From: Strix aluco | Taxonomy: Eukaryota; Chordata; Aves; Strigiformes; Strigidae | NCBI RefSeq assembly: GCF_031877795.1 | Contig: NC_133971.1 | Coordinates: 60,086,463 to 60,150,462 of the forward strand | Direction of reading: 5' to 3' | Length of the DNA stretch: 64,000 nucleotides | In this document: positions 3,001 to 64,000 of the stretch, piece by piece | Layout: each line of letters begins with the position of its first letter | How positions within the stretch are numbered: position 1 is the first letter of the stretch | Notes under the pieces: generated by a model | The model's database searches: none | What the model saw: only the letters and a program-made list of their open reading frames with translations | Told to the model about the DNA's origin: nothing | Made by a program: the position numbers and the translations under genes

Positions 3001-6000
3001 AAAAGTGAACTTCCTTGAAGTCCCCAAGATCAGCCTGAGAGTGGATGGGGACCAAGGCGGTGTTACCTCTCACTCAATGCAACTAAACCAGGACAGAGAT
3101 GCTGAGTGACTGATACTTGAACATCTGTTTTCCCTTCAGTGAACACCTGTGACAGGAGTGCCTGTAGTTCTTCTTTTGCAGCAACTTACCATGCAAAAGA
3201 ATGACACCAGCCCCCACCTTGGGACCACACCAGAGCACAGAGCCCAGACCTTAGAGCAGAGGTGGCATGCCATATGCCGTGTGCCCAGCTTCTGCCTATT
3301 TATTAACTGTTGACCATAACACCCACTGAGCTCCTGCTGGCACTCCGGACAGAGCAGGCTGGTTTGCCCCTGTGCAGAAGGGGAACAACAGGTCACAGCT
3401 CCCAGCAGGTCCTGAGCTGTGAAGTACCACCTGAAGCCTGGTGGTGTCTCTCAGCGATAAAAGGCAGCTGCTACAGCAAGATCACACTTCAGTTAAGCTC
3501 AGCAGGGAGTGTGGGGTAGCTACCCTTCCTCCTCCAGGGCCAGCAGGCAGTCAGCAGCTCTGAGTTCAGCAGGAGCTATCTGCCCACTGCATTCAGGTCC
3601 ACTTCAGGCTCTGGTAGTGAAAGACCAGCTGAAAGACCCAGAGCAGCAACTGGACTAAACTGCCCAAATCCAACCCAACAGGGTTATTCAATACCCAAAG
3701 CTGCCTGAGCTGGCTTTTCCTGCAGCCCCTGTAAAGACTGGTCATATACACAGAAAGGCAATTTCTTTGCTTCCAAGCTTTCCTCCTTTCATAAATCCTT
3801 TTCTTCCAGATCAGCAGCCAGAGCAGTAACAGTGGCATAAAACGAGGTATAACTCACAGGCCTAGGTGTAAATGGGCTGGGAGAAACATACCAAGTAGCA
3901 CCCTGAAAACATGCCAGAATTTGCCCAGGTGTGACTCTACTCATTGCATCTTGCCTGCCTGACTTCTGACCTCACTCTCTGCTCAAACAACCCATAGCCC
4001 TGCCCTTAGCAAACTCAGAGAGAACTGTGCAGTGATTTTGCATGGGAGGAGAAGGTACCACCAGCAGCACCTCATCTTGCTGGTGTCTGCTGCAGGAGCT
4101 GGAGAAAGCATGTGGTGCTCACACATGCTCTGTCCTGAGACAAGGACATGAGTTGCTGAGGGAAACCGAAGGATGAGACCACACATGGAGCTTAATACAT
4201 GCTGGTGACAACATTCATCAGCCACCCCAGGCCAAGGTAATTAAAGGTGGCAAAGCACTGTGCCATCAATACCTTGCTTCTGCAAGTTATCTGGGGCAGG
4301 AAAGGATTCACCACAGTTAGCCAGACACATCATAGAAATTGCTGCCTCCTACATGTCAGAGAAAAACTAGCACTGAATGCTCCCACTGTCCCCAATTCCT
4401 CAACATGCTGATCTGAGACACTTAGACAAACTAATGACCTGAAGACTCTGGCACAGAATATCTTTAAAGTGCCTAAACCAATTTCAGAACAGACAGACTT
4501 AACACTAATCTTTGCCAGAGCTTCTCACTTTCCCACAGAAGTAGAAGGGAAGAAAGGTGCCCAGAGAATGGCTGCTGCTGCCTGTAACTCAGTGCCAGTT
4601 CATCCTCCTTCCCTCCAGCCAGATTCTTCCCAGAGAGTTTGTTCTCCTCACCATAAGCCATACATACCCACAAGTGTAAACTAAACAAGGACAGCAGATA
4701 CAGCAGGACAAAGTGGTTTATTTTGTGGCCACAGATGCCCTGTGATGCTGATAGGGCCCTTTTTTATTAGGCTCTGTCCCTTTAGGTTATGGTCACCATA
4801 TTCACGTCACTCTTAATCTATAGGGGATGAATCAGCTCTGCCTCTTCCTAGGGCACCCCAGCAACAGTGCAACAAGCCACGCTGTTGCGTGCATTTGGTA
4901 AACAACACAGCCCCATCAAAGCCCAGCTTTTCACCAGCCACAAGCTGAACTGCAAGGGATTATCTCAATGGAGAGACACAAGAACCCCATCCCTTGTAGC
5001 ACCCTTGGACCCACTCTTTGTGGATAGTATCTGAAAATTGCAAAACCAAAAAACTAAACCTGATGGCCATGTTCTGCATAAAAGATATGCTCCTGGAAGT
5101 GGTGAATTACCTGCTGCATTTCATCTCCTTTTCTATTCACAGACCCCTGGAAGACAAAAAGGTGATGTCAGTTCATTCATTTCTTCTTCATATTTCATCC
5201 TCAAGGTTGTGATGGCAGAAAAAAAGGTTACAGTAAAAATAAAAATGTTAATTAAAAAAAAAATCTGCACAATGAGCTGACTTTTTATGCTTCCCCACAG
5301 ACCACCACTGATGAAAATGGCTTCTGAGAATACATCACCAAAAATTCCCTGTAGAAAAGGAAAGCCAGGCAGGTCTTTGTAAATGTGATTAACACTCATG
5401 TCAGCACAGTCCGGATCCTTTCTCTTCCTTTATCACCCTCAGCCGTACACATCATCTCCTGTCCTATCTGCTCAGTTAGGCACACCCTTGGTCTCTATTT
5501 CTGAGACAATGCCTTCCTACAAGTCCAGGAATATGTGGTGTTAATTCCTGGACATGGACCAGGGGAAATCAGTAATATATATACAGCATCACCTAACTTA
5601 AGCATGTGCACTGGAAACATGTACTTTGCAGTCATTAGACAGAGATAAAGTCTCCTTTAAAGCACAAAGCAAGGCAGGAACCTAATTTAGCTGCACTGAA
5701 TTGTCCTCTGGAAAAGTACAAGATGCTTGCTCATAAATTAGGAAGATAATCTCCCTAGATAGCTGGGGGTTTACCAAAGATACTCAAAATGATGTGGCAT
5801 GTAAGCTCACAGGCACAGGGAACACATAAGTGTTGACATGAAGACAGGCTGCTCCACACACAATTGATGGGGAGTTCCTCTGCAGGATGGGACACACTTC
5901 TGACCAAGCATAGCCATGGTCTCCCAGCAGTCAAGAAGGGAGAGCCACTTCCAGCCCTCGATGCCCTCAGGTCCCCTGGGATGGCCAACAGCACGCACAT

Positions 6001-27017: not shown

Positions 27018-27022
27018 CCAGT
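27018..27022. repeat. Provirus target-site duplication, left copy (CCAGT)
   Basis: Five bases, CCAGT, directly before the left LTR. The same five bases follow the right LTR at 32968-32972. This shows that the LTR-internal-LTR unit occupies a single integration site. Confidence 0.88.
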
Positions 27023-27374
27023 TGTCCTGGTTTAGTTAGGATAGGGTTAAGTTTCCCCAGCAGTGGGGGGGAAGCTCTAGCCGGGTTATTCAATACCATG
27101 CTGACATCACGTCCTGGCGCCATATAGTGTGGGAAGAATTGGTGAGCACGTGGGGTTTGTGCAGCCGTTCCTCTCACTGCTGTATCGGTACATATACTTG
27201 CTCTGTTCATTGTTATTACTGTTATTGTTATTGTTGTTGTTTGTTGTGTTGCTGTTGCACTGTTGTATTAAACCTCTCCTTATCTCAGCCCCAGGGCTTT
27301 GTATTTCACTCCCTTTGTGGGGGAGGGGCAGCGGCCGCGTGGTCTCAGACCCCGGCAGGGACTAAACCACCACA
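27023..27374 (+). repeat. Left (5') LTR of the provirus
   Basis: 352 bp starting TGTCCTGG and ending ACCACCACA. It is correctly oriented relative to the genes, because the primer-binding site follows its U5 end. It has a weak TATA-like CATATA near 27121, a long TTATTG/TTGTTG stretch (about 27212-27255), an ATTAAA poly(A) signal at 27267-27272 and a GCGGCCGC box near the U5 end. It would supply promoter and poly(A) functions. Confidence 0.95.
27267..27272 (+). promoter_or_regulatory. LTR poly(A) signal (ATTAAA)
   Basis: ATTAAA hexamer in the left LTR, followed within about 30 bases by a T/G-rich stretch. It is conserved in the inverted right LTR and as a close match in the solo LTR at 8163-8523. 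This would place the R/U5 border shortly downstream. Confidence 0.6.
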
Positions 27375-27379
27375 ACTTT

Positions 27380-27397
27380 TGGCACCCAACGTGGGGC
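27380..27397 (+). promoter_or_regulatory. Primer-binding site, tRNA-Lys1,2 type
   Basis: Eighteen bases, TGGCACCCAACGTGGGGC, five bases after the left LTR. From general knowledge, the complement of the tRNA-Lys1,2 3' end is the same except for G at position 5. Foamy viruses use this primer. The site would prime minus-strand DNA synthesis and confirms the orientation of the left LTR. Confidence 0.8.
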
Positions 27398-27504
27398 AGT
27401 GAGAGGGTTGAGATGAGGACAAAAGGAGAAGGGCAATAGAGCAATCTGTTAGGTGTAATTTTTTTTCTGTTTTTATTTGTATTGTTTGATAAGAAACGTT
27501 TGCA
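27398..27504 (+). other. Proviral 5' leader
   Basis: Untranslated leader between the primer-binding site and the first gag ATG. It is purine-rich at first and then has a T-rich stretch near 27460-27485. A packaging signal would be expected here, but nothing specific can be recognised. Confidence 0.6.
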
Positions 27505-28158
27505 ATGCTGGCCAATTTGCTTGCGTGGTGGGGCTGGATTAATCCTTATATCCACTGTGTGTTCCCAGTGCTGGTGTTTGTTCTCAGTGGAAAATGTGTC
27601 AAGGGTCTTGTTTTGCTATACTGGCTACTGACTGCTTTTAATGGGCTTGCATCACTGATTGTGGGGGTGAACCAGTACCTGTTTGCTGCCTGGGCTTTTG
27701 TTAGGGGTCTCACCCCCTCTATGGGTGAGCCAGGGGAAGAGATCCTCTCGGTTTTTGAGAGTTTCAGCTATCCCTGGAGCACCCAGGCCAGTGTGCTTGC
27801 GCCACTGTGCTTTCTAAATGACTGCCAGATCTTGTTTTGGGCCATGCGGTATTTCTCCAACAATAGCACCACCCGGAAACCTGCTCCGAGGGCAGATAGT
27901 TATAAATGGCAAGGTGTGTGGGAAAAGATGGGCAAGTGCCTGAGTCAGTGGTCACCCCCAATGCTTTGGGATTTCACTCCCGAACAAGTGCAGAGTCCTG
28001 ATAAACTGGTGGAGTGTTTGGAAAAGGTGTGCTGCCAACCTGACAAACCCCGGGAAACACAAACCCTTGCGATGTGCTGGGGGCTTGCCCATGCCTACCG
28101 TGTCATCTTTAACACTGTTCACTGCCCTCAAGGGGGGAGAAGGGGCTGCAGGATCTGA
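27505..28158 (+). pseudogene. gag, N-terminal part with hydrophobic segments
   Basis: A 217-codon open frame starting at the first good ATG after the leader. It would be the N-terminal region of Gag, the structural polyprotein. Residues about 12-28 and 32-55 are strongly hydrophobic, with a further hydrophobic stretch to about 65, suggesting membrane-associated segments close to the N-terminus. The rest is Trp- and Cys-containing and has no domain I can name. The true Gag frame appears to shift to the +1-relative frame between about 28067 and 28158, because the next Gag block continues in the other frame (28067-28465). I assign it to gag by position and continuity, not by recognised motif. 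Confidence 0.7.
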
Positions 28159-28465
28159 AAGTGAACTTACTGGTGCAGCAGCTGGGCCAGTGGGACAGGC
28201 AGTGCCAGTACCAGTCTCTTCCACCAGGAGAGCAGCTGGGCCAGAGGGACAAGCAGTACCAATATCAGTCGCTCCAATATGGAAAACCAAATATACCAAA
28301 ACATCCCCTCGCAGTGTACAGGGTGATGATGAACCAGGCCCATCACGAGAGCAGGAGGAAGAGCCGGAGGTAATCATCCGATCTCTATCCCTGAGTGAGT
28401 TGCGAGATATGCGGAAGGATTTCAGCCGCCTTCCAGGTGAGCAAATTTGCACCTGGCTGCTCTGA
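28067..28465 (+). pseudogene. gag, middle part
   Basis: An open frame in the same frame as the downstream gag block. Its first half overlaps the N-terminal frame and is rich in Gly, Ala, Pro, Val and Gln, like a linker. It then has an acidic stretch and the block RSLSLSELRDMRKDFSR, which resembles the start of a capsid-like domain. It ends at a TGA (28463-28465) after Thr-Trp-Leu-Leu. The same frame reopens at once, so the TGA is a nonsense mutation, probably from a CGA arginine codon. Confidence 0.7.
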
Positions 28466-28495
28466 TGCTGGGATAGTGGAGCTGCTGGTTTTGAA

Positions 28496-29344
28496 TTGGA
28501 GGGGAGAGAGGCCAAGCAGGTGGGACCTTTAGCCAAGCAGGCTGGTATTGACAAGGCAATAGGGAAACAGGCTCAAACCCTCAGCCTTTGGAGGCGACTC
28601 CTGCTTGGTGTGAGGGAGAGGTACCCCTACAAGAATGATGTTCTATGTCGGTTAGGCAAGTGGATCGACATGGAGAAAGGCATTCAAAACCTCAGGGAAT
28701 TGGCTGTGTTTGACATGGTCTATGGTGATCTGAACGATGAGTGGTCACCAATGGATCCAGATCAGGCCCCTTGCACACAGTTGATGTGGCGGAAGTTCCT
28801 GCAAAGTGGACCAGAGGCACATTCCAAAGCATTAGCAGTAGTGTCCTGGTGGCGAGACACCCAGACTCAGACAGTGGACAAAGTGATTATCCAGCTCTGG
28901 CAATATGGGGGAAATCTCCCTTCCTCCCAACATGCTTTGGTTTCAGCTGTAAAGGAACTGTCTCAGAGGCTCCAGCAAGTGGAAGAGGACATGTCCTACG
29001 TTCCACCTGCACGGGTCGATGTCTCAGCTATTAGAAGCAGGCGCTTCCCCACCCAAGAGAAGGGCAGTGGAAGGTACACACCACGGGGCACCCTATGGTT
29101 CTTCCTCTGCAACCATGGGGAAAACACGAGGAGGTGGCACGGACAGCCCACTTCTGCCCTAGCTGCACGAGTACAGCAGCTGAAAGGGAAGACCACCAAG
29201 AGAAACGCAGCTCCAGTGTCCAGTTGGAAATCCCCCAGACAGAATAGAATGGCCAACACTATGCTTGACCCTCTTGAGGGGACCAGGAAGTCATTCTTGC
29301 AGGAGTCACTCTTAGATCAAGCGAGTGATGGTGAGCAGGATTAG
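28496..29344 (+). pseudogene. gag, capsid-like C-terminal part
   Basis: A 282-codon open frame continuing gag in the same frame after the TGA at 28463. It is helix-rich, with many Trp and Leu, as in a retroviral capsid. Near residue 198 is the block GTLWFFL followed by Gly-Glu-Asn-Thr-Arg-Arg-Trp and a basic Ala-Ala-Arg-Val stretch, which I recognise as a hallmark of ERVL-type Gag. No Cys-His-Cys zinc knuckle is visible, as usual in this group. The frame ends at TAG 29342-29344, which may be the natural gag terminator, since the protease continues in the same frame beyond it. Confidence 0.82.
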
Positions 29345-29791
29345 ACGGGCCCTGCCTCCAGCCGGGTGGCGGAAAGGGATAATTGGATTTACTGTAAGGT
29401 GTGGATCTGATGGCCTGGCACATCAGACCCACAAGAATATAAGACCTTGGTAGACACTGGCACACAGTGCACCCTGATGCCATCAAGCCACAGTGGGGTC
29501 AAACCCATCTGCATCTCTGGAGTGATGGGGGGATCCCAACAGCTGACCCTATTAGAAGCTGAAGTAAGCTTAGCTGGGAAGGACTGGCATAAGCGCCCCA
29601 TTGTGACTGGCCCAGATGCCCCGTGCATCCTAGGTATAGACTATCTCAGGAGAGGGTACTTTAAAGACCCAAAAGGGTACCGGTGGGCCTTTGGTATAGC
29701 TGCCCTGGAGGAGCTTGAGCAATTGTCCACTTTACCCGGCCTCTCAGAGGACCCCTCGGTGGTGGGGTTGCTTAAGGTTGAAGAGCAGTGA
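29345..29791 (+). pseudogene. pro, retroviral aspartic protease
   Basis: Same reading frame as gag, beginning after the gag TAG and broken once by TGA 29408-29410. The retropepsin would cut the Gag and Pol polyproteins. The active-site triad Asp-Thr-Gly lies in LVDTGTQCTLMPS (about 29447-29485), and the conserved C-terminal Ile-Leu-Gly-Ile-Asp-Tyr-Leu lies near 29627-29647. Spacing between them is normal for a retroviral protease. In-frame placement behind gag suggests expression by stop readthrough when the virus was active. It ends at TGA 29789-29791. Confidence 0.85.
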
Positions 29792-30337
29792 GTGCCAATT
29801 GCTACCAAGACGGTGCACCAGCAGCAGTACTGCACTAACCGAGATTCCCTGGTCCCCATCCATCAGCTGATCCGTCGACTAGAAAGCCAGAAGGCGATCA
29901 GCAAGACTCATTCACCTTGCAACAGCCCTATATGGCCAGTGAGAAATCCTAATGGCGAATGGAGACTGACCGTGGACTACCGTGGCCTGAATGAAGTTAC
30001 GCCAGCGATGAGTGCTGCAGTGCCGGACATGCTAGAGCTCCAGTATGAGCTGGAGTCGAAGGCAGCCAAGTGGTACGCCACGATTGACATCGCTAACGCG
30101 TTTTTCTCCATCCCAATAGCACCAGAGTGCAGGCCACAGTTTGCATTCACTTGGAGGGGTATCCAGTACACCTGGAATCAATTGCCCCAGTGGTGGAAAC
30201 ACAGCTCCACCATTTGCCATAGACTGGTCCATACTGCACTGGAGAAAGGTGGGGCTCCAGAACACCTGCAGTTCATTGATGATATCATTGTATGGGGGGA
30301 CACAGCTGAGGAAGTCTTTGAGAAGGAAAGACAATAA
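29792..30337 (+). pseudogene. pol, reverse transcriptase fingers and palm
   Basis: Continues in the gag-pro frame after TGA 29789-29791. It holds the fingers and palm of reverse transcriptase, which copies viral RNA into DNA. Visible blocks are WRLTVDYRGLN (about 29959-29991), the first catalytic Asp in ATIDIANAF (about 30077), a degraded Leu-Pro-Gln block with Trp where Gly is expected, and the YxDD-type box as Phe-Ile-Asp-Asp at 30272-30283. Both catalytic Asp residues survive; Phe replaces the more usual Tyr. A one-base loss near 30328 shifts the frame and produces the stop at 30335-30337. Confidence 0.88.
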
Positions 30338-30783
30338 TTGAAATCTTCCTGAAGGCTGGTTTTGCCATCAAGAGACAGAAAGTTAAGGGGCCGGGAAGGG
30401 AGATTCAGTTCCTAGGAATAAAATGGCAAGATGGGCGTCGCCACATCCCAATGGAGGTGATAAACAAGATAACAGCCATGGCCCCACCAACCACCAAAAA
30501 GGAGACTCAGTCTTTCCTGGGCGCTGTGGGGTTCTGGAGGATGCACATCTCAAACTACAGCCTGATTGTGAGCCCTCTCTACCATGTAACCCGCAAGAAC
30601 GATTTTAAATGGGGCCCAGAGCAACAAGCCTTTGAACAAATTAAGCAGGAGATTACCCAGGCAGTGGCTCTCGGGCCAGTCCGGGCAGGGCAGGAGATTA
30701 AGAACGTGCTCTACACCACAGCTGGGGAGAATGGCCCTTCCTGGAGCCTTTGGCAGAAAGCACCTGGGGAATCCCGAGGCTGA
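30337..30783 (+). pseudogene. pol, reverse transcriptase thumb and connection
   Basis: Continuation of pol in a different frame after the deletion near 30328. It includes the Phe-Leu-Gly-Ile block (about 30410) and the Gln-Ser-Phe-Leu-Gly-Ala-Val-Gly-Phe-Trp-Arg block (about 30508-30540) that mark the thumb and connection region of many retroviral RTs. It ends at TGA 30781-30783. A further shift near 30800 returns pol to its original frame. Confidence 0.85.
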
Positions 30784-30806
30784 CCTCTAGGCTTTTGGAG
30801 CCGGAT

Positions 30807-31495
30807 ACAAAGGCTCTGAAGCTAACTATACACTGACTGAGAAGGAGATACTGGCAGCGTACGAAGGAATTCGAGCTGCCTCAGAAGTGGTCGGCACTGA
30901 GACACAGCTCCTCCTGGCACCCCGACTGCCGGTGCTGGGATGGATGTTCAAAGGAAAGGCTCCCTCTACACATCATGCAACAGATGCCACATGGAGTAAA
31001 TGGGTTGCGTTGATAACACAATGGGCTCAAATAGGGAACCTCGACCCCCCAGGATTAGTGGAAATGATCATAAACTGGACAGAGAGCAAAGATTCTGGGA
31101 TGTCACCAGAACAAGAGGTGAAACATGCTGAGGAGGCCCCACCATATAACGAGCTGCCAGAGGAGGAGAAGCGATATGCCCTGTTCACTGATGGGTCTTG
31201 CCGCATTGTGGGAAAACATCGACGATGGAAGGCTGCGGTGTGGTATCCCACATGACGAACCACTGAAGCTGTTGACGGACAAGATGAATCGAGCCAGTTC
31301 ACAGAGGTGAAAGCCACCCAATTGGCTTTGGAGATTGCTGAGCGAGAAAAGTGGCCGAGGCTCTATCTCTACACTGACTTGTGGGTGGTGGCAAGTGCCC
31401 TGTGGATGTGGTTGCAGCAATGGAAACAGAACAACTGGCAACACAAGGGCAGACCCATCTGGGCCGCTGAAGTATGACAGGATATTGCAGCCTGG
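30807..31495 (+). pseudogene. pol, connection end and RNase H
   Basis: Back in the gag-pro frame. The first part contains Glu-Lys-Glu-Ile-Leu-Ala-Ala-Tyr-Glu, typical of the RT connection. RNase H, which degrades the RNA strand of the hybrid, starts near 31175 with the catalytic Asp in FTDGS (31184-31198). The catalytic Glu is in Phe-Thr-Glu-Val-Lys-Ala (about 31300), and the next Asp in Leu-Tyr-Thr-Asp (about 31367-31378). Two TGA stops (31253-31255 and 31475-31477) interrupt it. The last RNase H residues run on into the integrase frame. Confidence 0.85.
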
Positions 31496-32515
31496 GTGGA
31501 GAACCTCGTTGTGAAGGTGCGCCATGTGGACACCCATATGCCCAAGAGTCGGGCCACTGATGAACATCAACATAACCAGCAGGCAGACCAGGCTGCTAAG
31601 ATCGAAGTGGCTCAGGTGGACTTGGACTGGCAGCATAAAGGTGAACTGTTCATAGCCCGGTGGGCCCATGAGACCTCGGGCCACCAAGGCAGAGATGCAA
31701 CATACAGGTGGTCTCGAGATCGAGGGGTGGACCTCACCATTGACACCATCACAGAGATCATCCACGGATGTGAGACGTGTGCTGCAATCAAACAAGCCAA
31801 ATGGGTGAAGCCCCAGCGGAATGAAGATTGATGGATGAAATATAAATATGGAGAGGCCTGGCAGATCGACTACATCACACTGCCACAGACCCGCCAAGGC
31901 AAGCGCCACGTGCTCACAATGGTGGAAGCAACCACTGGATGGCTCAAAACTTATCCAGTGTCCCACGCCACCGCCCAGAATACCATCCTGGGCCTTGAAG
32001 AGCGAGTCCTGTGGTGACACGGCACCCAGAGATGATTGAGTTGGACAATGGGACTCACTTCCGAAATAACCTCATAGATGCCTGGGCAGAAGAACACGGC
32101 ATCGAGTGGGTCTACCACATCCCCTACCATGCACCAGCCTCTGGGAAAATCGAGCGCTACAATGGACTGTTAAAAACTACATTGAGAGCAATGGGGGGGT
32201 GGAACCTTCAAACACTGGGACACACATCTGACAAAGGCCACTTGGTTAGTCAACACAAGAGGATCTGCCAATCGAGCTGGCCCGGCTCAGTCAAAACTTC
32301 CACGTGTTGTAGACGGGAATAAAGTCCCTGTGGTGTGCATGAGGGATGTGCTGGGAAAAATGGTCTGGGTTAGTCCTGCGCCGGGCAAAGGCAAACCCAT
32401 CCACGGGATTGTTTTTGCTCAAGGACCTGGGTGCACCTGGTGGGTGATGCAGAAGGATGGAGAGGTCCGATGCGTACCACAAGGGGACTTGATTTTGGGT
32501 GAAAACACACCGTGA
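31496..32515 (+). pseudogene. pol, integrase
   Basis: Integrase joins viral DNA ends to the host genome. The N-terminal zinc-binding His-His-Cys-Cys module is present (His pair at 31667-31684, Cys codons at 31769 and 31778). The core triad is complete: Asp at 31868-31870, Asp at 32044-32046 and Glu at 32152-32154, with 35 residues between the last two, the canonical spacing. A Trp-rich C-terminal block (about 32395-32510) follows. Damage: TGA 31829-31831, TGA 32015-32017, a one-base loss near 32027, and a frameshift in a seven-G run at 32191-32197. The final stop at 32513-32515 is probably natural. No dUTPase or env follows. Confidence 0.88.
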
Positions 32516-32594
32516 ATTATACTGTGCTTTTGTTAATTTTTCTTTGTTAATGCTAATTGCTAAATGGCAGCTGGATGTGATGCACATGGTATAG

Positions 32595-32608
32595 AATAAA
32601 GGGGTGGA
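32595..32608 (+). promoter_or_regulatory. Polypurine tract
   Basis: AATAAAGGGGTGGA lies near the right end of the internal region and resembles the purine primer for plus-strand DNA synthesis. A normal tract directly touches the U3 start of the 3' LTR. Here eight bases (TTAAAAGT) separate it from the LTR, and the LTR is inverted. Confidence 0.65.
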
Positions 32609-32616
32609 TTAAAAGT

Positions 32617-32967
32617 TGTGGTGGTTTAGTCCCTGCCACGGTCTGAGACCACGCGGCCGCTCCCCCTCCCCCACAAAGGGAGTGAAATACAAAGCTCTGG
32701 GGCTGAGATAAGGAGAGGTTTAATACAACAGTGCAACGATGACAAAACAAACAACAACAATAACAATAACAGTAATAACAATGAACAGAGCAAGGTATGT
32801 ACCGATACAGCAGTGAGAGGAACGGCTGCACAAACCCCACGCGCTCACCGATTCTTCCCGCACTATATGGCGCCAGGAGGTGATGTCAGCATGGTATTGA
32901 ATAACCCGGCTAGAGCTTCCCCCCCACTGCTGGGGAAACTTAACCCTATCCTAGCTAAACCAGGACA
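32617..32967 (-). repeat. Right LTR of the provirus, inverted
   Basis: 351 bp. On the plus strand it reads from TGTGGTGG to CCAGGACA, the reverse complement of the left LTR. By eye about 15 positions differ from the left LTR. They include a small cluster in the TTGTTG stretch, a 1-base indel in the CATATAC segment, and scattered CpG-type changes. It keeps the ATTAAA signal and the GCGGCCGC box. Both outer ends of the provirus are therefore U3 ends. Just inside it, AAAAGT (32611-32616) is the reverse complement of the six leader bases after the left LTR. Confidence 0.95.
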
Positions 32968-32972
32968 CCAGT
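32968..32972. repeat. Provirus target-site duplication, right copy (CCAGT)
   Basis: Exact copy of 27018-27022, directly after the inverted right LTR. Confidence 0.88.
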
Positions 32973-52505: not shown

Positions 52506-53393
52506 ATCTTTACTGAAGAATGGCTGAGCACTGGCACAGGTTGCCCAGAGAGTCTGTGGAGTCTCCATCCTTGAAGATAATCAAAGCCATCTGAATATGG
52601 TCCTCAGCAAGAGGCTGCAGGTGGCCCTGCCAGAGCAGGGGGATCAGACAAGATGACTTTCAGAGGTCCCATCCAACCTCAACCATTCTCTGACTTTGTG
52701 AAGTAGGTATGAGAAGGAAAGGAAAGGAGCAAGAGGGAAAGAGGGGCACAGGGCATAAAAAGCAACTGAGAGAGAAAAAGGCAGAAGGAACGAGTAAGAG
52801 GGAAAGGAAGCGAGTGTCGAAAGGAGCAATCAAGATTGAAAGACAGGAATAGGAAAAGGTAGCTAGAGGGGGAAGGAGTGAACAAGAATGGAAGAGAGGC
52901 AGAGGAAGAAGAAAGCAAGAGAGGAAAAGTGATCAGGACAGGGAAGAAAAGAAGGATAGAAAGCGAAGAGACAGAGGGAAAGAGTGAGAGAGTGGAAGGA
53001 AGACAGCAATTGAGAGGGAAAGAGATAATAAGAGAAAGAGGCCAAGGAAGTGGGAAGGCAGAAATGGATGTAAAACAAAATCAGTGGGAAAGATGGTGGG
53101 AAAGTGAGATGCAAGAGGGAGTGAGTGGGAAAGAGAGGGACACAGAGGCAGAAGGAAAAAGACAAAGATCACAGCAGGGACAGGGAGTGAGAGGGAAATA
53201 TTGTGAGGGGGAGAGGAAGGTGGAAAGTGAGTGCAAGCAAAGAAAAGCATGAGACAAAGACAGCAAATAGGGAAAGAGAGAAAATAAAGGAAAGAGAGGG
53301 GAAAGCAAGCAAAAGATGGAAAGAAAGATGGAAAAGCAAGCAAGAGGGCAAGAGCAAGAACAAAAGGGAATGAGTGAGAGACAAGGAGAGAGA

Positions 53394-53514
53394 CCTTGTT
53401 TTCCCATGACTTTTCTCATGTTTGCCCTTCTGATTCTCTCCCCTATCCCACTGGGAGGGGAGCAAGCAAATGGCTGTGTGGTGCTTGACTGCAGACTGGG
53501 GTTAATCCACAACA
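53394..53514 (+). mobile_element. Truncated ERV LTR (3' end) inside the array
   Basis: About 120 bp of non-purine-biased sequence. It includes CTTTTCTCATGTTTGCCC, GATTCTCTCCCCTATCCC, ACTGGGAGGGGAGC and the terminus GGTTAATCCACAACA. I recognise it as the U5 end of a common avian ERV LTR family. The U3 and R parts are missing. Array units resume directly after the terminal CA. Confidence 0.75.
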
Positions 53515-56500
53515 GAGGGAAAGTGCATGAGATAGCAAAAGCCTATACACAAGAGACAGGAAAAGAAGGATTACAGAGACTGAAACATGCAAAAGAGAGA
53601 AAGTATAAGCAGTTAAGAAGGAAAGCACACAACAGATATGAAAATGGCATGCACAAGGGAGGAAAAACATGCACTGGAGGCACAGCATGTGAGAAAGGGA
53701 AAGAATGCAAGAAAAAGCATGAAAAAGTGTGACAGAGAGGGGGCGGGAAGAGAGCACAAGAAGGGAAATTGCACAGGAGAGACACAAAAAACCCAGCACA
53801 GCAAGAAACAGCATGCAAGAGAGAGAACATGCACAAGAGAGAGGGGAAGCTCTCACAGACAAGAAACAGGGAATAAGCATGACAGAAGGAGGAAAAGGGC
53901 ACAACAGAGAGGGAGCACAAGAAGGAGGGAAAGAAGTGCATGCAAGAGCAAGGGACAAGTGTGCATGTGAGACAGAGAGCAAATGCCTGAGATTAAAGGA
54001 AAGAGTGCACAAGAGAAGGAAGCTACACAGAAATTATAAGAAAAGCAGACACATGAGAGAGAGGTAAAGACAGAGCATGCATGAGAGAAGGGGAAAGCAT
54101 GCAAGACAGAAAATGTATGCAAGAGGTAAACATGAGATACAGGGAAAGCCTGAGGCAGAGGAAGTGTGTAAGACAGGAGGGGAAAGTGAGAGTGTAGCAA
54201 AAGAAAATGCAAGGCAGACAAAGCACAACTAAAAGAGAGAACAGCATATGTAAAACATGTGAAGTGCAGGGGAAAGTGCAGAGCAGGAAAGCAGGCAAGG
54301 GAGAAACGGAAAGTATGACAAGACAAACAGAAAGCACTTGTGAGGAAGCATGTGATGGAGAAAGGGTAAATGTGCCTAAGAAAGCAAGGAAGAAAGACAG
54401 GAAAAGTGCATCCATGAGGGAGGGATGGTGAAAGAGAGAGGACATATACCAGGGAAGAAAGGAAAGCACACACAATAAAGGCACAGTGCATGACAGAGAA
54501 GTAATGCAGAAGAGAGAACGGCACAGAGAAATCAGGAAGAATTGGAAAGTGTGAAGAGTGTCCCAGAGAGAGAGGAACAGATGCACGGGACAGTGGTAAA
54601 GCATTATAAAAGAGGGAAGGAAACCTTACACAATAGGGAGGAAGAGAAAGCATGTGAAAGGGAGTGAAAGAGCATGAGAGAGACAAGTTCAACCAAGAAG
54701 GGAAGTATTTGAGAGGGAAGGTAGGCACAAGAGGGAAACATTGTAAATGAGAGAGCTCAAGAGAGCATGAAAGTGAGAGACATTCACAGCAGGGGCAAGG
54801 AAAGCTTGGGTAAACAAGAGGGAAAATGCATACAAGAAAGTGAAAGGACATATGAAAGAGAGAGGGAACACGCATGATAGAGCAGTAAACTGTGACTGAG
54901 AGAAAGAGAGGAAAAGCATGCCAAAGACAGAAAAGAAAAGCAAAGGGGCAGGGGGGAAGTGCACATATGGGAAAGTGAGAGAGAGAGAGGGAGTATGCAC
55001 AAGAGGGGGGAAAGGTGCAACAGAAAGAGCAAGGGAAAGGTGCCAGAGAGGGAAAAGGCATGCTAAAAGAGATGAAAGATATGAGAGAGGGAATGGATAG
55101 ACAAAATAAGAGATGTTCATTAGAGACGACATTCGCACATGGAAGAGGGAAAGCATGTGACAGAACAGGAAAGTGCACAGGTGAGAGGGAAAGCATGCAA
55201 GACAGCATGAGGGAGGAAGGAAAAGGGTTGCATGAGGGAGGGAAAGTGCCCAAGAGAGGGAAAGGATAAACAAGAAAGACAGAGGGAAAGTACAACCAGT
55301 AGAGAGGGACAGTGCAAGACAGTGAGAGGGGGGAAACATGCGAGAGAGGAAAAGCACATGCTAAAGAGGGGAAACACAACAGAGAGAGTGAAGGAAAGCA
55401 TGCGAGGGAAAATTTGAGAGAGAAGGGAAAAACAACAGAGTGTGAGGGAAAGAGAAAGGGAAAGCATATTCACACACACAATAAAAGTGTACAAGAAAGA
55501 GCAAGGAAAACTGCAATAGACAAAAGAAAAAGCACATGCAAAAAAGTGAAAGCATGCATGAGAGGGAAAGCATGCTAGAAACTGAGAGCATGCACAAAGA
55601 GGAAAGTGTGAGAAAAGGAGAGGGACAGAAGGGTGAAAGAGGGACAGAAAACATGAGCAAGAGAGGAGAAGGGGGGAAGTGAAAGCAAGTGAAAGGGGGA
55701 GGAAAAGAGAGACAGTATGCATGAGAGAGGCAAAGTACAAGCAAGAGAGACTGGGAGACTGTTCAACAGAAACTACATGTGGTAAAGGAAGAGCATTAAA
55801 GGCAGTGAAGTATAGAAGAGAAACCAAATGTGTGAGGCAACCCCCAAGAAAAGGAAAAATTGAGAGAGAGAAAGGGCACATAAGAGAAGAAAAGGTGCAG
55901 TAGAGATAGGGAAGAACATATGCAGACAGGTAGGAGACAAGAAAAGCATGCTATAAAGGGAAGCCATGTGAGGAAAGCATGAGAAAGCATGCAGGAAAGC
56001 AAGAGAGGGAAGTGTGTGAGAGAAAGAGAGGGAAAGGGTGTGAGAGATAAAGGGGAGGCAAGAACAAGAGAGGCTAAGCACAAGCATTGGTGAGAGGAAA
56101 AGTGCCCAAGGTAGGGGGGAGGGACAAAAACTGCACAAGAGGGAGAGAGGGAATGTGTGAGAGATACGGAGGGAAAAGCATGTGCACAGAGAGAAGGAAT
56201 TGTTATGTGAGGAATGAGAAGTAAACCATACAAGTGAGTGAGAGAGAAAGCATATACAGTAGAGGTAAAGTGCACATAGGATGAGAAGCACATGCAAGAC
56301 AGGGAAACTGCATGCATTCAAGAGGGAAGGAACGCACACATACAGGAGTAGGAAAGTGTCAGAGAAAGATGCACTGGAGAGAAGGCAGAAGAAAGGGAAA
56401 GTGCATGAGATGGGATGCACAAATGAGAATAGTGTATGAGTGAAAGCACAGGAGACAGGGCAAATGTGACAGAGAGGCTGCAGAAGTAAGACAGAGAAAG

Positions 56501-57374
56501 TGTGAGAGAGGGCAAGTGTGCAAGCGAAATCAAGCATGCCAGGTTGCACATAACAGCATGCACAAGACAAGAAAAGCATAAGATGGAGAAACTGAGACAG
56601 AAAGGATGTAACAGCATGAATACGAGTCAAAAAGTTTGTAAGACAGAGAGGAAAAGCTTATTCTAGGGAGGCAAAAAGTGTGCAAGAGAAGCAAAAACCA
56701 TGCAGTAGAGGCAACAAGCATGCCAGAGACACTAAGTACGTGCAAGACAGGGGGAGTGCTTGTGAGAGAGGTCGTGTCCAAGAAAGGGAAATATGCAAAA
56801 GAGGGAACATGAGACAGACAGAGAAAGGGAGGGTGACAGATAAGAGAATAAAAGTGTAGTTATGTGGAAATTAATAGAAAGGGAGAGAGACAGTGAGCAT
56901 GAAAGAAATGTAGGGGCAGTGAGAGAAAGAGAAAGAGATAAGGAGATGTAGGAACAATGAGACAGAGAGAGGGGTGGGGAGCAAGATAGTGAGAATGAAA
57001 GGAACAGTGCAGCAGAGGGAGAGCAGTAGGGGCAGTGAGAGGGAAAGAGAGGAAGAAAAAGAACAGGAGGGACAGTGGGAGAGAAAGAGTTGAGTGGGAC
57101 AGACAGCAAGAGTGGGGTGGGATGGGAAGGGGGGAGAGGGAGAGGGAGAGAGGAAGAAGGGACAGCACACAAGAGGAAGGAACAGCAAGGGCAGAGAGAG
57201 AGGCAAGACAAAGGGACAGGGAAGGGGCAACAGCAAGAAAGATGGGGCCATAAGACAGAGACACAGAGGGACAGCAAGAGACACAGAGGAACAACTAGAG
57301 AGGCAGAAGGACAGTGTGGGAGGGAAAGGCAGTGAGTGAGATTGATGGGGACAGCGAGAGTGCGACAGAGTGAT

Positions 57375-57394
57375 GGGGGGGGGGGGGGGGGGGG
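57375..57394 (+). repeat. Poly(G) run, 20 bases
   Basis: Twenty consecutive G on the plus strand. It can fold as a G-quadruplex. Homopolymers this long are also typical places for sequencing length errors. Confidence 0.9.
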
Positions 57395-57612
57395 AAGAAA
57401 TGGGGACAGCAAGGGGGAGCAGTCCACAGGGGGACAGCCAAAGAGAGAGGGAAGGTCAGAACAGAAGCGGTGGGTGGGGACTGATGGGGGGACCCAGAGG
57501 GCCAGCCAAAGCAGGAGGAGAAGGGGGGGATAGCCAGAGAGAGAGGGAGAGAGGAACAAAGGGCAGGAAGAAGGCAGTGAGAGGGAAGAGTGAGGAGTGG
57601 AGGGACTACAAG

Positions 57613-57673
57613 AGGGAGGGAGGGAGGGAGGGAGGGAGGGAGGGAGGGAGGGAGGGAGGGAGGGAGGGAGGGA
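57613..57673 (+). repeat. (GGGA)n microsatellite, about 15 units
   Basis: About 61 bases of uninterrupted GGGA/AGGG tetranucleotides. Every four units can supply a G-quadruplex, and the polypurine tract could also form a triplex. Confidence 0.95.
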
Positions 57674-59318
57674 CCACATGAGAGACAGACAGATAGGGAG
57701 GACAGGCACTATGTGAGAATGACAGAAACTGTGTATGACAGACAGTGCAAAAGTGTGTGAGAAAGAGAGGGAAAGTTTGCCAGTGGGGGAGGAAAATGGG
57801 GGAAAACAAGGGTGGGAGACAGAAGGGAAGCAAGACAGAGAGAGTGTTGGGGAGAGAGGAAATGGGGGGGTGTTTGAGAGGGAAAGTGAGGGGGCAGCAA
57901 GACAAACAAAATGAGGGACTGAAAGACGGGGGTGGGGAGAGAGAGAGGACTAGCAAGTAAGACAGTGAGATAATGAGTGCTAGTGAGCAAGGGACACAGG
58001 AGAAGCACAAGTAAGAGACTGAAAGAATGTGCATGGTCAAGTGCAAGTGAGAGATAGGAAAGCATGCAAGAGAGGGATAAAACTGCAAAAGAGCAAAGCG
58101 AGGGAGAATGAGAGAGGAAAGAGCATGAAGAAGATGGGAGAAGAGAGTGGGGGAAGTATGTGAAAGAGGTCAGGAAAGCATGTTAGAGAGTGGGGAAAGT
58201 GCATTCCACGGCAGGGGAAAGCACCTTCTGAGATAGGGAAGTGAGGGGGAAAGTAAAAGCAAGAGAGGGAGATGGGGGTGGGGGGGTGGGGCGGCAAGGA
58301 GGCAGGGAAGAGAGGGCAGAAAAAGTCAGAGAGAGGACAAGAGAGAGAGACAAGGAGGGTATGAGGGAGGAACATCAAGAGGAATTGTTGGGGAGTAAGA
58401 ACACAGCAGGGGAGAGGGAATCTGAGACAAGGGACAGCAGCGGTGAGGAAACAGGACAGAGAGGTGTTGTGAGCAAGAGACTGAAAGTATGAGTAAAAGG
58501 GAAAGTGCAAGCATGAGAGGAAAAGCATGTGAGGGATGGAAAGCATGCAAGAAGTGGAAGGAAACCAAAAGAGGAAGGCAAGAGAGAATGACAGAGGGAA
58601 GAGCATGAGAAAGATGTGAGTGAGGGAAAGTGCATGAGAGAACTGTAAAACATACAAGAGAGCTGGAAAGCACAGAGGGTCGGAAGGCTCAGGGAGAGAC
58701 TGGAAGAGAGAGGGGGCAAAGGACCAAGGGGATGGTGTGAGAAAGCTCATTAGAGACAGGAAAAGTGCAAGGGGAGGGGGGGGCAGGGTTTGAGACAGTG
58801 GAGAAAACTTAGGGGATTAAGAGAAAGATGGATCAAGTGAGAAAAGGAAGTGCTAGAGGAACCACATTCAAGAGTGGCAAGGTGGGTGACAGATGGAGTT
58901 TGTGAGGGAAAGAGGAAAAGGGGACAGCAGAGAGAGGAAAAGCATGTGACTGAGGGGGGAAGTGTGTGAGAAAGGGAAAGCAACAGAGAATGTGTGTCTG
59001 AGACTGGGAAAGCAAGGGACAGGGAGAGAGAGGGGGAAACGAGGTAGAGACAGGGAGAGATGGGCATGAAGGGGAAGAGAAAGAGGAGCAGGAACAGGAA
59101 ACAAGAGGGAAAACAAAAGGAAGGGAAAGCAAGAGTGGGGATAAAGCAAGAGGGACAGCATGAGAGAGAGGGAGGAAAAGGGCACAAAAAACTGATCATG
59201 GGACTGAGAGAGAAAGTGCAAGCACAAGAGAGGAAAATTGTGTGCCTGGAAAAGTATGCAAGAGAGCAGGACAGCAGAAGAGCAAAGTGACACAGAGAGT
59301 ATGTACAAGAGAAAGAAG

Positions 59319-59336
59319 ACACACACACACACACAG
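59319..59336. repeat. (AC)n microsatellite next to CR1 tail
   Basis: About eight AC units directly before the CR1 AGAATCAC repeats. It probably arose from slippage at the CR1 3' end. Confidence 0.8.
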
Positions 59337-59758
59337 AATCACACACAGAATCATTCAGGTTGGAAAAGACCCTTGGGATCATCGAGTCCAACCATCAGCC
59401 CTACTCTACAAAGTTCTCCCCTACACCATATCCCCCAACATCTCATCTAAACCACCCTTAAACACATCCAGGGATGGTGACTCCACCACCTCCCTGGGCA
59501 GCCTATTCCACTGTCTGACCACTCTTTCTGTGAAAATTTTTTTTCCTAATGTCCAGTCTAAACCTCCCCTGTTGCAGTTTAAAGCCATTCCCTCTTGTTC
59601 TGTCGCTAATTACCTGTGAGAAGAGACCAGCACCAACCTCTCTACAATGTCCTTTCAGGCAGCTGTAGAGAGTGATGAGGTCTCCCCTCAGCCTTCTCTT
59701 CCTCAAACTAAACAGTCCCAGCTCCTTCAATCGCTCCTCATAGGATTTATTCTCCAGG
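59331..59758 (-). mobile_element. CR1 LINE 3' fragment inserted in the array
   Basis: A 5'-truncated CR1 of about 430 bp on the minus strand. The terminal AGAATCAC-type units are at its left end, followed on the plus strand by the GGTTGGAA 3' UTR start and the ORF2 C-terminus. A minus-strand frame includes the [15 protein letters not shown] block and Arg-Thr-Arg-Gly-Asn-Gly. It is well preserved and sits between array units on both sides, so it inserted after the array had formed. Confidence 0.92.
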
Positions 59759-62700
59759 TCAGTGAAGGCACACAAGAGATATATGGAAAGCAAGAGAAGG
59801 GAGCAAAGTGCATCCAGGAGAAAGGGCATATGACAGACTGAAACATACAAAGAGAGAGGGAAAGCTAAAGAAAGTGTGAAGGATAGCAAGTAGGAGGACA
59901 GAGAGCAAGAGAGAGGGAGGTAGCAAGCTAGAACGGGAAAGCATTAGCAAGAAACTGAAGGCCTAAGTGTGAAGGAAAGAGCATGCAAGACAGAGGAAAA
60001 GTGTGGGAAAGGTGGGAAAGCATGTGAAAGGAAGTTAGCAAGAGAGGAAGAGACAACATAAAAGAAAAAGGGAACCAGTAAAGTACAAGGGAAGGGAAGG
60101 ACGGCATATGTGAGAGAGTACAAATTGCATGTCTGACAAAAAACACATGACAGAGAGGCAAACTGCATGACAGAAGAGGGAAAATGTGTGTGAGAGAGGA
60201 AAAGTGCATGAGGCAGAGCTGTGGAAAGTGTGTGAGAAAGAGCAAGGAGGGGAAGCATGAGAGAGGCAAACCACGTGACAGGCAGGAGAAACACTAGACA
60301 GAGACAGGCATGGTAGGTGAGAGAGAGGCAAACCATATGACAATAAGTGAGAACATGTGTGAGGGAAAGAGTGGAAGTGACAGAGATGAGGGGGGGTGGG
60401 AGTTGAAAGAAGAGAGATGGAAAGGGAAACTGAGGACAGCAAGAAAGAGGGAATTAGCTGAGAGAGGGAAAGAAAGAAAAAAAGAGAGGAAGTGAGAGGA
60501 ATAGCAACAGAGCAGGAAAGAAAGGGAGGAACACTAGTGAAAGACAGAAAGCTTGAGTGAGATGGGAAGTGCAAACAAGAAGGGAAATTTTGAGAGAGAG
60601 AAAGCATGAAGAGAGGGAGAAAGACACAGTAAAGAGGGGTAATAAGACACAGGGAGGGGAGTGCAAGGTAGCTAAAACAGTGAGCAAGGAAAAGAACACG
60701 AGAGATAAGGAAAGCATGGAGAGGCAAAACTCCAGTGAGAGGAAAAGCACATGAGAGACAGAATGCCTGCGAGAGAGGCTGTTGAGAGAGACAGGCATAG
60801 GGTGTGCCAAAGGCAGAGGGCATGATGGAAAGAAGTAAAGGGCATGGGAAGTCTGTGAGAGGGAAAGTGTGTGAGAAAGCATCTGAGCACATAAGAGAAA
60901 AGGGAAGCATCCAAGACTGGAAGGGAATGCAAGGAGGAGGGAGAAAGTACATGAGAGGGGTAAACTGTGAGTGAGACTGAGGGAAAGTAGGTGACAGACA
61001 GAGGCAAGCCATGCGACAGAGACGCAAAGCAAGTAAAAGAGGCAAAGCAGGAGAAAGAGGAAAACCATGTGAGACATGGGAGTAGGAATGTGTGTGAGGG
61101 AGAGGAAAGCAATATGGAGCAAATATATGTCTGAGAGAGACAGAGAGAAAAAGTGTGAGAGAAGATAAGTAGGAGAGGTGGAGAAGAGGGAAAGACAAAG
61201 CAACACAAAGGCAAAGCAAGACACAGCAGGAGATGGAGGGAGGAAAAGCACAAGTAAAAGTGCAAGCAAGAGGAAAAGTACAATCAAAAAATGATAATTG
61301 TGTGAGAGAGGCAGGAAGCACAGAATGCAAGATAAAGACGTTGAAAGGAACAGACACAGAGAGGGAAGCACCTAAGAAAGAATAAACATGCAAGACAGCG
61401 AAAGCATGTAAGAGAGAGCAAACGAGATAGAAGCAAAGTGAATGTAAGAGGGAAAGCACTAAAAAGAGGGAGGTAAAGTGTGTCTGAGAAAGAGGAATAA
61501 CACGTGACAGAGATGCAAAGCAAAAGAGAGAGACATTGCAAATGAAATGACAGAAACGTGAAAGTGTGCAAGAGACAGCGAATATAAGGGTGGCAGCGAA
61601 GGGAGAGAAGCAGTGGGAAGACGGAGGGAGAGGGAGAGAGAAGGAGAGGAAGGCAGAGTGGCATGAGATACAGAGGGGAAGCATGAGAGAGAGAAGACAA
61701 GCACAACTTCAGACACAGAGGGGCGAGATGAGACGGCGGAAGGGTGGACAGAGTGAGGGGAAAGGGAGGGGAAGAGAAATGAGATTCAGAGGGAAAATGA
61801 GAAAAAGAAGGGAATTGAGAAAGAAGGATGGTGAGAGATAGGGATAGCACAAAAGGGGGAGGAAAAGCCCAAGAGAAAAAGCATGAGGAGGGAAAGTACA
61901 AGCAGAAGAGAAAGGGATTGTGTGACAGAGAGAAAGCATGCTACAGAGAGGGGAAGCAAGGGAGAAGCAAGTGCAAGAAGACTCATGCAAGACTGTGAAA
62001 CTACAGGGAGATGTAAAATGCATTTGACAGGGAAAGGGCACCTGAGAGAGAAGGAAGGCCAAGCGAGAAAAAAGCAGGTGACAGAGAAAGTATGCAAGAG
62101 AGGAAAGATTATACTGAGGAAAAGTGGTTCAGAGAGAGGGGGGGCAAATAAGGTGGGGGTAGTGAGAAGGAGAGGTGAAAACAAAAGGGATAGAGGGAAA
62201 ACAGAAGAAAACTAAATCACGAGGGAGAGAGAGAGAAAGGTGTGGGGAAACAGAGGGAGAGAGAGTAAGAGAGTGAAGAGGGGGAAGCAAGAGAAAGACA
62301 GATAGCAAGGGTTAGCAAGGGCTAGCACAAGAAAGGGAGGAAAATCAAGGTACAGAAAAGCATGAGCAAAAGGAAAACTGCGAGCAGGAGAGATGAAAAT
62401 TGTGCAACAGGGAGAAAGCATGCAAGATAAGGAGAGAGAGAATCAGAAAGCAAGATGAAGGGGGGAAGCAAAAGAGAGAGGGAAACAAGAGAAAGAAGTA
62501 ACACACAAGAGTCAAAGCACACAAGAGACAAAAGGAAAGCATGAGAGAGAGTCAAAGCGTGCGTGAGAGTGCAAAAATGCATCAGAGTGGCACAGGGATA
62601 GTGGGGAGCATGCTGAGAGAGAGAGAGAGAGATAATGAGCCACAAAGAGGAGAAAGCACAAGAAGGAGACTGAAAGCATAACTGAGGGAAAGTGCATGTA

Positions 62701-64000
62701 AGAAAGGAAATGTTTCAGAGATGGAAAAGCACGCAAGGGATGGGGAAAACAAAAGGCAGAGTGGCAAAATGAAAGAGGGAGAGGGAAAATGAGGCACGAC
62801 GAGAGAGAAGTGCAAAAGACAAGAAAAATGAGACGGGGGGGAGTATCCAAGAGAAAAGACAAGCAATGGGCAGGGGTGTGAGAAAAGGCAAGTGCATTGG
62901 AGAGAGAGGGAAAAACACTCTTACAGGGGCAAATCACGTAAGAGAGAGGCAAACCATGTGCAAGGAGAAGCAAAACGAAAAGTGTGTCAGAGAGACATAC
63001 AGCACAAGAGAGGGACAGGACAAGAAACAGGGAGGAAAAGCACAAGGATAAGTGAGTGAGGTGGAAAGTGTGCATGGAAAAGAAGAATGAAAGCACGCAA
63101 GACAGGGAGAAAGTGAGAGACCATGAGAAACATGCTAGAGGGTGTGCTAGTGAGTGTGAGCACACAAGGAAAGCAAGAGGGAGAAGTGAAGCACATGCAA
63201 CAGGGAAAGCTTACTTGAGAGTGGGAAAGCATGTCAAAGAAAAAGGTAAAACATGCCCAAAAGAGATGGAAAACATGTTTGAGACAAATGGAAAGGTCAG
63301 GAGAGGGAAAGCAAGAGAGGGAGGAAGTGAGCAATCAACAGTGAAATAGTGACAACAGAGTGATAGCACAAGCAAGAAACGCAAGCAGGAGAGGGAAGCT
63401 GCATGCAAGAAAGAGGAAAACTGTCAGAGATGGAATAGCATGTGAGACACAGGCAAAGACAGTAAAAGAGAGGGGAAATGGGGCAGGGGGAAGGGGAGTG
63501 AAGACAGAAAAGCAGGCAAACCAAGGTTGGTGGGAAGGGCATGGGACAGAGGAAGGGGAGAGAGAAGGGCAGGGAGGAAGGGAGCAAGAAAGGTTAGAGG
63601 AAGAGGGAAAGCAAAAGAAAAGGGAAACGTAGGAGAGGAACAGCTACAGATAGCAAGGAACAGCACCAGAGAGAGGGAAGAAAAGCACAAGAAGCATAAG
63701 TGGGAAAGTGCAAGCAAAATAGGAAAACTGCATAAGTAGGTACATGTTAGAGAAAGAGAGAAATCTGAGAGAGAAGGAAAGCACAACTGAGAAAGGAGGA
63801 CAATCTGGAGTAGGGCAGAAAGAGAAATACATAGGAGAAGTGAGAGCAAAAGAAAGAGAAACCAACAGGGAGACAAGGGGGAAGAAAAGCGAGAAAGAAA
63901 GAAAAAACAGAAAATAGAAAAAAAACATGCAAGAGCACGCATGCTCACAAGAATATGAGAGATACAGAAACCAAGAGGCGGGTAAAGCACGTCAGAGATA

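Follow-up and report, generated by a model that had tools for sequence, protein, structure and literature searches.

Structure of the Window Provirus

The window analyzed here (the whole stretch of 64,000 nucleotides from Strix aluco, at C41:60086463-60150462 in a searched genome of 1.41 Gb in 202 contigs) contains an endogenous retrovirus (ERV) whose two long terminal repeats (LTRs) face in opposite directions, with the unique 3' (U3) end of the LTR outermost on both sides. The same inverted junction recurs elsewhere in the genome, and the few bases at its joint mostly follow the spacer that, in each copy, separates the unique 5' (U5) end from the primer-binding site (PBS). The window provirus consists of the following features:

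27018..27022, no strand: left target-site duplication, CCAGT (read from the sequence and compared across copies)
27023..27374, + strand: left LTR, direct, TGTCCTGG...CCACCACA (read from the sequence; LTR alignment)
27375..27379, + strand: 5-nt spacer ACTTT, from the U5 end to the PBS (read from the sequence)
27380..27397, + strand: PBS-like 18-mer, with CACCC in the window copy and CGCCC in the common form (read from the sequence)
29411..29788, + strand: aspartyl-protease piece, weak (Pfam E 0.047, below cut-off)
29792..30334, + strand: reverse-transcriptase piece (PF00078 4.5e-16, above cut-off; structure 7o0h 1.5e-21)
31256..31474, + strand: RNase H piece (PF00075 2.7e-5, just under cut-off)
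31478..32319, + strand: integrase zinc-binding and core pieces, spread over three separate open frames (Pfam scores below cut-off)
32598..32611, + strand: polypurine tract (PPT) and end of the internal region, AAAGGGGTGGATTA, stopping exactly where direct copies begin U3
32612..32616, - strand: joint AAAGT, the reverse complement of the ACTTT spacer and hence an unprocessed U5 end (read from the sequence; alignment)
32617..32967, - strand: right LTR, inverted, U3 outermost (read from the sequence; LTR alignment)
32968..32972, no strand: right target-site duplication, CCAGT (read from the sequence and compared across copies)

The left LTR and the reverse-complemented right LTR share 336 identities over 351 aligned positions (15 mismatches and 1 gap; ~96%), and an inverted-repeat search recovered arms of 184 and 172 nt. 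The alignment bears out the original prediction that the right LTR is inverted relative to the left, and its other structural readings held as well: CCAGT stands at both outer ends (27018-27022 and 32968-32972), a PBS-like 18-mer follows the left LTR beyond the 5-nt spacer, and a polypurine stretch precedes the right LTR, finishing at GGATTA (32611) directly before the joint. A canonical provirus has direct LTRs and offers one U3 and one U5 tip; this one does not. The prediction had made no mention of AAAGT (32612-32616) between GGATTA and the inverted LTR, or of the eight further genomic places with the same junction. The pol pieces between the LTRs lie in several broken frames, the integrase pieces scoring 1.6e-4 (PF17921), 1.9e-5 (PF00665) and, for the third piece, 7.9e-5 (PF13358) and 1.3e-4 (PF00665).

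Recurrence of the Inverted Junction

How widespread is the inverted junction in this genome? Among the best 40 of 2770 candidates, scored after a genome search with a 260-base query across the window 3' junction, nine span the inverted junction, while the matches at the remaining 31 end at query position 210-229. The count of nine is a minimum, because only those best 40 were scored. The original prediction had allowed for copies elsewhere, and at least eight other places do match across the junction. The nine places lie on three contigs (C41, C40, and C5; copies are designated below by contig and position) and have different flanks. Exact-pattern counts gave 5 inverted junctions against 231 direct ones, so that inverted junctions make up about 2 to 2.5%; 34 of the 231, among the 100 listed, belong to a single tandem array on C10. 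The mirror form, with a flipped left LTR, had no exact match in a genome pattern search, compared with 106 exact places at which the common PBS form adjoins a direct LTR end. Six of 11 matches to the inverted pattern were rejected as chance: one is a direct 3' LTR, and five are LTRs with a duplication of their own and no adjoining internal sequence. In these five the duplication sits on the U5 side (exact in L093, L107, L108, and L109; 4/5 in L094).

The normal form of the family is direct. A relative 0.5 Mb from the window reads AAAGGGGTGGATTA and then TGTCCTGG (i.e., a direct 3' LTR). In direct relatives generally GGATTA abuts TGTCCTGG, and 29 of 32 3' ends compared carry a direct LTR there, the exceptions being the window, L052, and L073. 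The 40 stretches fetched at the expected 3' ends of relatives (39 from 5'-junction matches and 1 from another search) comprise 28 with a direct 3' LTR, 2 with an inverted one, and 10 without a recognized 3' end; the 2 in 30 should not be taken as an unbiased frequency, because the relatives were chosen for likeness to the window 5' end.

Several rearrangements and arrays were seen along the way. One 49-Mb contig, C40, holds 27 of the 40 5'-junction matches listed; our guess is that it is an ERV-rich W chromosome. On this contig two copies in opposite orientation lie 14 kb apart (48.606 and 48.620 Mb; L021/L050 and L022/L051) with their duplications, CCAAT and CAGCA, swapped—the signature of inversion by recombination between the two. 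At C10:2750338-2914322, 34 direct 3' junctions follow one another about every 4.9 kb on one strand, forming a tandem array with an ERV end. Repeats of the LTR/leader junction of a sister subfamily, at C3:10.03-10.12, 17.23-17.39, 19.46-19.55, 20.87-20.93, and 24.82-24.91 Mb (spaced about 11-13 kb) and at C2:18.25-18.43 Mb (less regularly spaced), suggest more tandem arrays carrying ERV ends. In the window itself, short tandem repeats abound at positions 53256-63582; most are imperfect and purine-rich, and their units span 4-36 bp.

The Joint and the Target-Site Duplications

The inverted copies share one order: internal DNA up to the PPT/U3 border, then the reverse complement of the copy's own U5-to-PBS spacer, then the flipped LTR. 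The internal side stops at GGATTA or a one-base variant of it—the PPT/U3 border—in eight of the nine. A joint AAAGT accompanies a spacer ACTTT in the window, C40:5.13, and C40:38.11 (the joint of C40:16.91 is AAAAT), and a joint AAGT accompanies a spacer ACTT in C5:34.11, C40:36.35, and C41:55.15, the last scored by eye because a mutated G escaped the scripted pattern. Spacer and joint lengths are 4/4 in three copies, 5/5 in four, and 5/6 in one, and are thus equal in seven of eight (permutation fraction 0.018); the letters of the joint agree with the copy's own spacer in six of the seven length-equal copies. Because the outer edge of the spacer is the expected end of the tRNA primer, the joint would be the unprocessed U5 tip of the complementary DNA (cDNA), and we therefore infer that the LTR was flipped before integration.

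Are the copies independent insertions? Both outer ends are readable in seven inverted copies, and the 5-bp duplication is exact in four (left/right CCAGT/CCAGT in the window, CCTGC/CCTGC in C41:19.87, CTAGG/CTAGG in C40:36.35, and GATAT/GATAT in C41:55.15), matches at 4/5 bases in two (CAGGA/CAGGG in C40:5.13 and AATAC/AATAT in C5:34.11), and is unmatched in one. By comparison, none of 42 cross-pairings of targets between copies matches at 5/5, and one matches at 4/5. C40:16.91 has lost its right U3 tip. In L073 (1700-1930), the inverted LTR breaks off within U3; different sequence, beginning TGTACTGGGTCTGG and perhaps from another LTR family, comes next.

Internal lengths are those of ordinary family members: 5237-5262 in five of eight inverted copies versus 5196-5317 in 11 of 13 direct copies computed. 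The longer inverted spans are 5357, 5609 (with a nested LTR), and 6523. In the inverted-LTR copy L052, an additional direct family LTR (2630-2973), apparently a nested solo LTR, stands ~150 bp ahead of the 3'-end region. The two LTRs of a pair are 93.0-98.0% identical in seven inverted copies and 86.4-97.5% identical in 17 direct pairs. Among 56 LTRs, the partner LTR is nearest, alone or tied, for 12 of the 14 LTRs of the seven inverted pairs; the window left LTR ties with two solo LTRs for nearest. In a weak tree of 37 3'-end pieces (the direct row L048, a short 3' piece, was left out), the inverted copies do not cluster: the nine require 8 label changes, against a shuffled mean of 8.2.

Family and Class

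The window provirus is a class III (ERV-L-like) element. Its LTRs have the form TG...CA and are flanked by a 5-bp duplication, and duplications of that length are exact in 8 of 17 direct LTR pairs and become exact in 2 others if shifted by one base; 1 pair matches at 4/5, and 6 pairs do not match. Among solved structures, one reverse-transcriptase piece is nearest foamy viruses, its best chains being named Pr125Pol and Peptidase A9/RT, which we take to be foamy virus Pol. No env family match was found in a subset of 18 translated pieces scanned with Pfam. The 18-mer of the window PBS presumably resembles the tRNA-Lys1,2 type. Classical ERV-L is named for a tRNA-Leu primer site, whereas the PBS of the window family looks unlike the tRNA-Leu type. 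A tRNA scan and an Rfam search of the window gave no match, nor did Pfam on four frames flanking the provirus. The accessible part of PMC6523648 gives a 5-bp duplication rule for ERV3, and the ERV-L/spuma-related class III ERVs it describes (TguERVL type) have in common with the window family the 5-bp duplication and a foamy-like reverse transcriptase; the window pieces scanned, which gave no env family, may match them in this respect too.

Origin of the Inverted LTR

How might a provirus come to carry U3 at both tips? Probably, the inverted-LTR proviruses were made by a recurrent error of reverse transcription before integration, by either of two routes. The cDNA of an ERV-L-like retrovirus would gain a reversed 3' LTR, its unprocessed, tRNA-primer-set U5 end being joined to internal DNA exactly at the PPT/U3 border; this cDNA would then have U3 at both tips, and integrase would insert both with the usual 5-bp stagger. 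In the route we favor, to which we give an even chance of being correct, reverse transcriptase would finish plus-strand strong-stop DNA at the U5 end, jump end-to-end to a template that terminates at the PPT/U3 cut, and copy the genome from there, the left U3 being copied later from the same LTR. Each side of the joint corresponds to a single-strand end that arises naturally: on the LTR side, the U5 terminus of plus-strand strong-stop DNA; on the internal side, the PPT/U3 cut. Speculatively, a U3 end without need of 3' processing, as proposed for foamy viruses, would ease integration of two U3 ends; an asymmetric scheme of this kind (U5 trimmed, U3 intact) has been proposed for prototype foamy virus, according to the available portion of PMC1180852. 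Of the two origins offered in the original prediction, integration of a faulty reverse-transcription product carrying U3 at each end gains support from the recurrence at separate sites, from 5-bp duplications that differ between sites and mostly match within a copy, and from the way the joint tracks the spacer.

Some observations weigh against a pre-integration error. C40:38.11 has no matching duplication (GACGG/CACCA, 2/5 bases) and an internal span of 6523 bp, and in C40:5.13 neither LTR is nearest to its own partner among the 56 compared. The joint of C41:19.87 has one extra C; that of C5:61.65 is irregular (GGAGTATTAAGT), and its left end, and with it the spacer, was not found in four stretches fetched. 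For the sister subfamily, the corresponding joint (AAAAGGC, the reverse complement of the spacer, after a presumed TTA 3' end) had 0 exact matches. The 3'-end tree is poorly resolved, with 1 starred branch of 34. PMC1180852, in the portion available, reports the asymmetric scheme for prototype foamy virus yet argues for a symmetrical one. The evidence comes from assembled, integrated copies.

In the second pre-integration route, which we consider possible but rather unlikely, the 3' LTR would come loose where the plus strand is nicked, at the PPT/U3 border, and host end-joining would reattach it in reverse. This route predicts an identical joint—a blunt unprocessed U5 end on GGATTA, with U3 outward—and two deviant copies, one with an extra C and the other with an irregular joint, resemble the outcome of end-joining; it also requires a minus-strand break exactly opposite the nick, time after time, and seven of eight joints lack trimming or added bases, which would be unusual for end-joining. 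Insertion of two different cDNAs via their U3 ends, with the inner ends joined and trimmed, would account for U3 at both ends and for the duplications, but in most of the nine copies trimming would have had to halt at an identical pair of bases, and paired LTRs are mostly each other's nearest; we regard it as improbable.

The remaining explanations are less credible still. The original prediction's other option, replacement of the 3' LTR after insertion, is disfavored by the duplications and the own-spacer joint. Whether through inversion or replacement of the LTR by conversion or through a solo LTR landing by a truncated copy, such a change is very improbable: rearrangements between copies do occur, as in the two C40 copies with swapped duplications, but accident would have to supply a correct U3 tip together with a correct duplication, several times over, the joint follows the copy's own spacer, and the LTRs that are mere chance matches to the junction pattern carry their duplication on the U5 side. 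A separate replicating lineage of inverted-LTR elements would explain why several copies have a common joint and is, if anything, more doubtful, since inverted copies are scattered among direct ones on the weak tree, the joint tracks each copy's own spacer, and a sense transcript would be without the 3' repeat (R) region. Assembly error or chimera has a negligible probability, since the nine places are spread over three contigs, differ in their flanks, and mostly show matching duplications. Overall, assembly error, later inversion, and nesting are unlikely because of the recurrence, the separate duplications, the stereotyped spacer-tracking joint, and the absence of clustering on the weak tree.

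Relation to Known Systems and Implications

DIRS retrotransposons, which use a tyrosine recombinase and make no target duplication, likewise have inverted terminal repeats. A DIRS-type element was rejected here on account of the 5-bp duplications and the integrase zinc and core pieces, although these score below cut-off. A HERV-K-related element described by Hughes and Coffin in 2002 (Genomics 80:453), in a title that says it "resembles a DNA transposon," reportedly has its LTRs as terminal inverted repeats; it is reported to be one human class II element, whereas the family here is class III-like, with nine or more inverted copies. In HERV-K124, the 3' and internal LTRs are inverted relative to the 5' LTR, as the 3' LTR is in the window provirus, but there the inverted LTRs are truncated, and two internal regions are present at the locus (PMC3625200, in its accessible text). 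Aberrant integrations of human immunodeficiency virus and Rous sarcoma virus resemble the inverted-LTR copies in the unusual use of a viral DNA end; as far as the accessible text of PMC5041404 goes, one end is joined there by host enzymes, with host rearrangements and large duplications or deletions, unlike the 5-bp duplication found here mostly at both ends.

No description of recurrent inverted-LTR proviruses was recognized in the literature searched, which mostly lacked subscription papers and was judged largely by title. The relevant items recognized were HERV-K124 and, by title only, a Dictyostelium retrotransposon paper; the accessible parts of PMC3228705, PMC8310711, and PMC5014426 contain no inverted-LTR provirus. 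To call the form previously undescribed, a possibility raised in the original prediction, is too strong: PMC3625200, in the part available, refers to Hughes and Coffin 2002 for a mechanism of LTR inversion in HERV-K. What is new is the recurrence and the spacer-tracking joint; the inverted-LTR provirus as such has that cited HERV-K precedent.

What does the recurring joint tell us about the biology of the family? Exact to the base, it preserves a reverse-transcription intermediate in fossil form, marks both the tRNA-defined U5 end and the PPT/U3 cut, and indicates that integrase in this family could work with a pair of U3 ends. The interchangeability of U3 and U5 ends in vivo becomes testable from genomes alone. 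Annotation tools that seek direct LTRs would overlook this class. Inverted LTRs would recombine to invert rather than delete, and the copies should therefore persist as full proviruses. Integration by two U3 ends of a cDNA with a flipped 3' LTR may, with chances evenly balanced, be a regular minor pathway (~2% of surviving exact 3' junctions), enabled by a spuma-like U3 end that is ready without trimming; the resulting copies, unable to collapse to solo LTRs, would then make up a proviral class of their own, long-lived and bearing two converging promoters.

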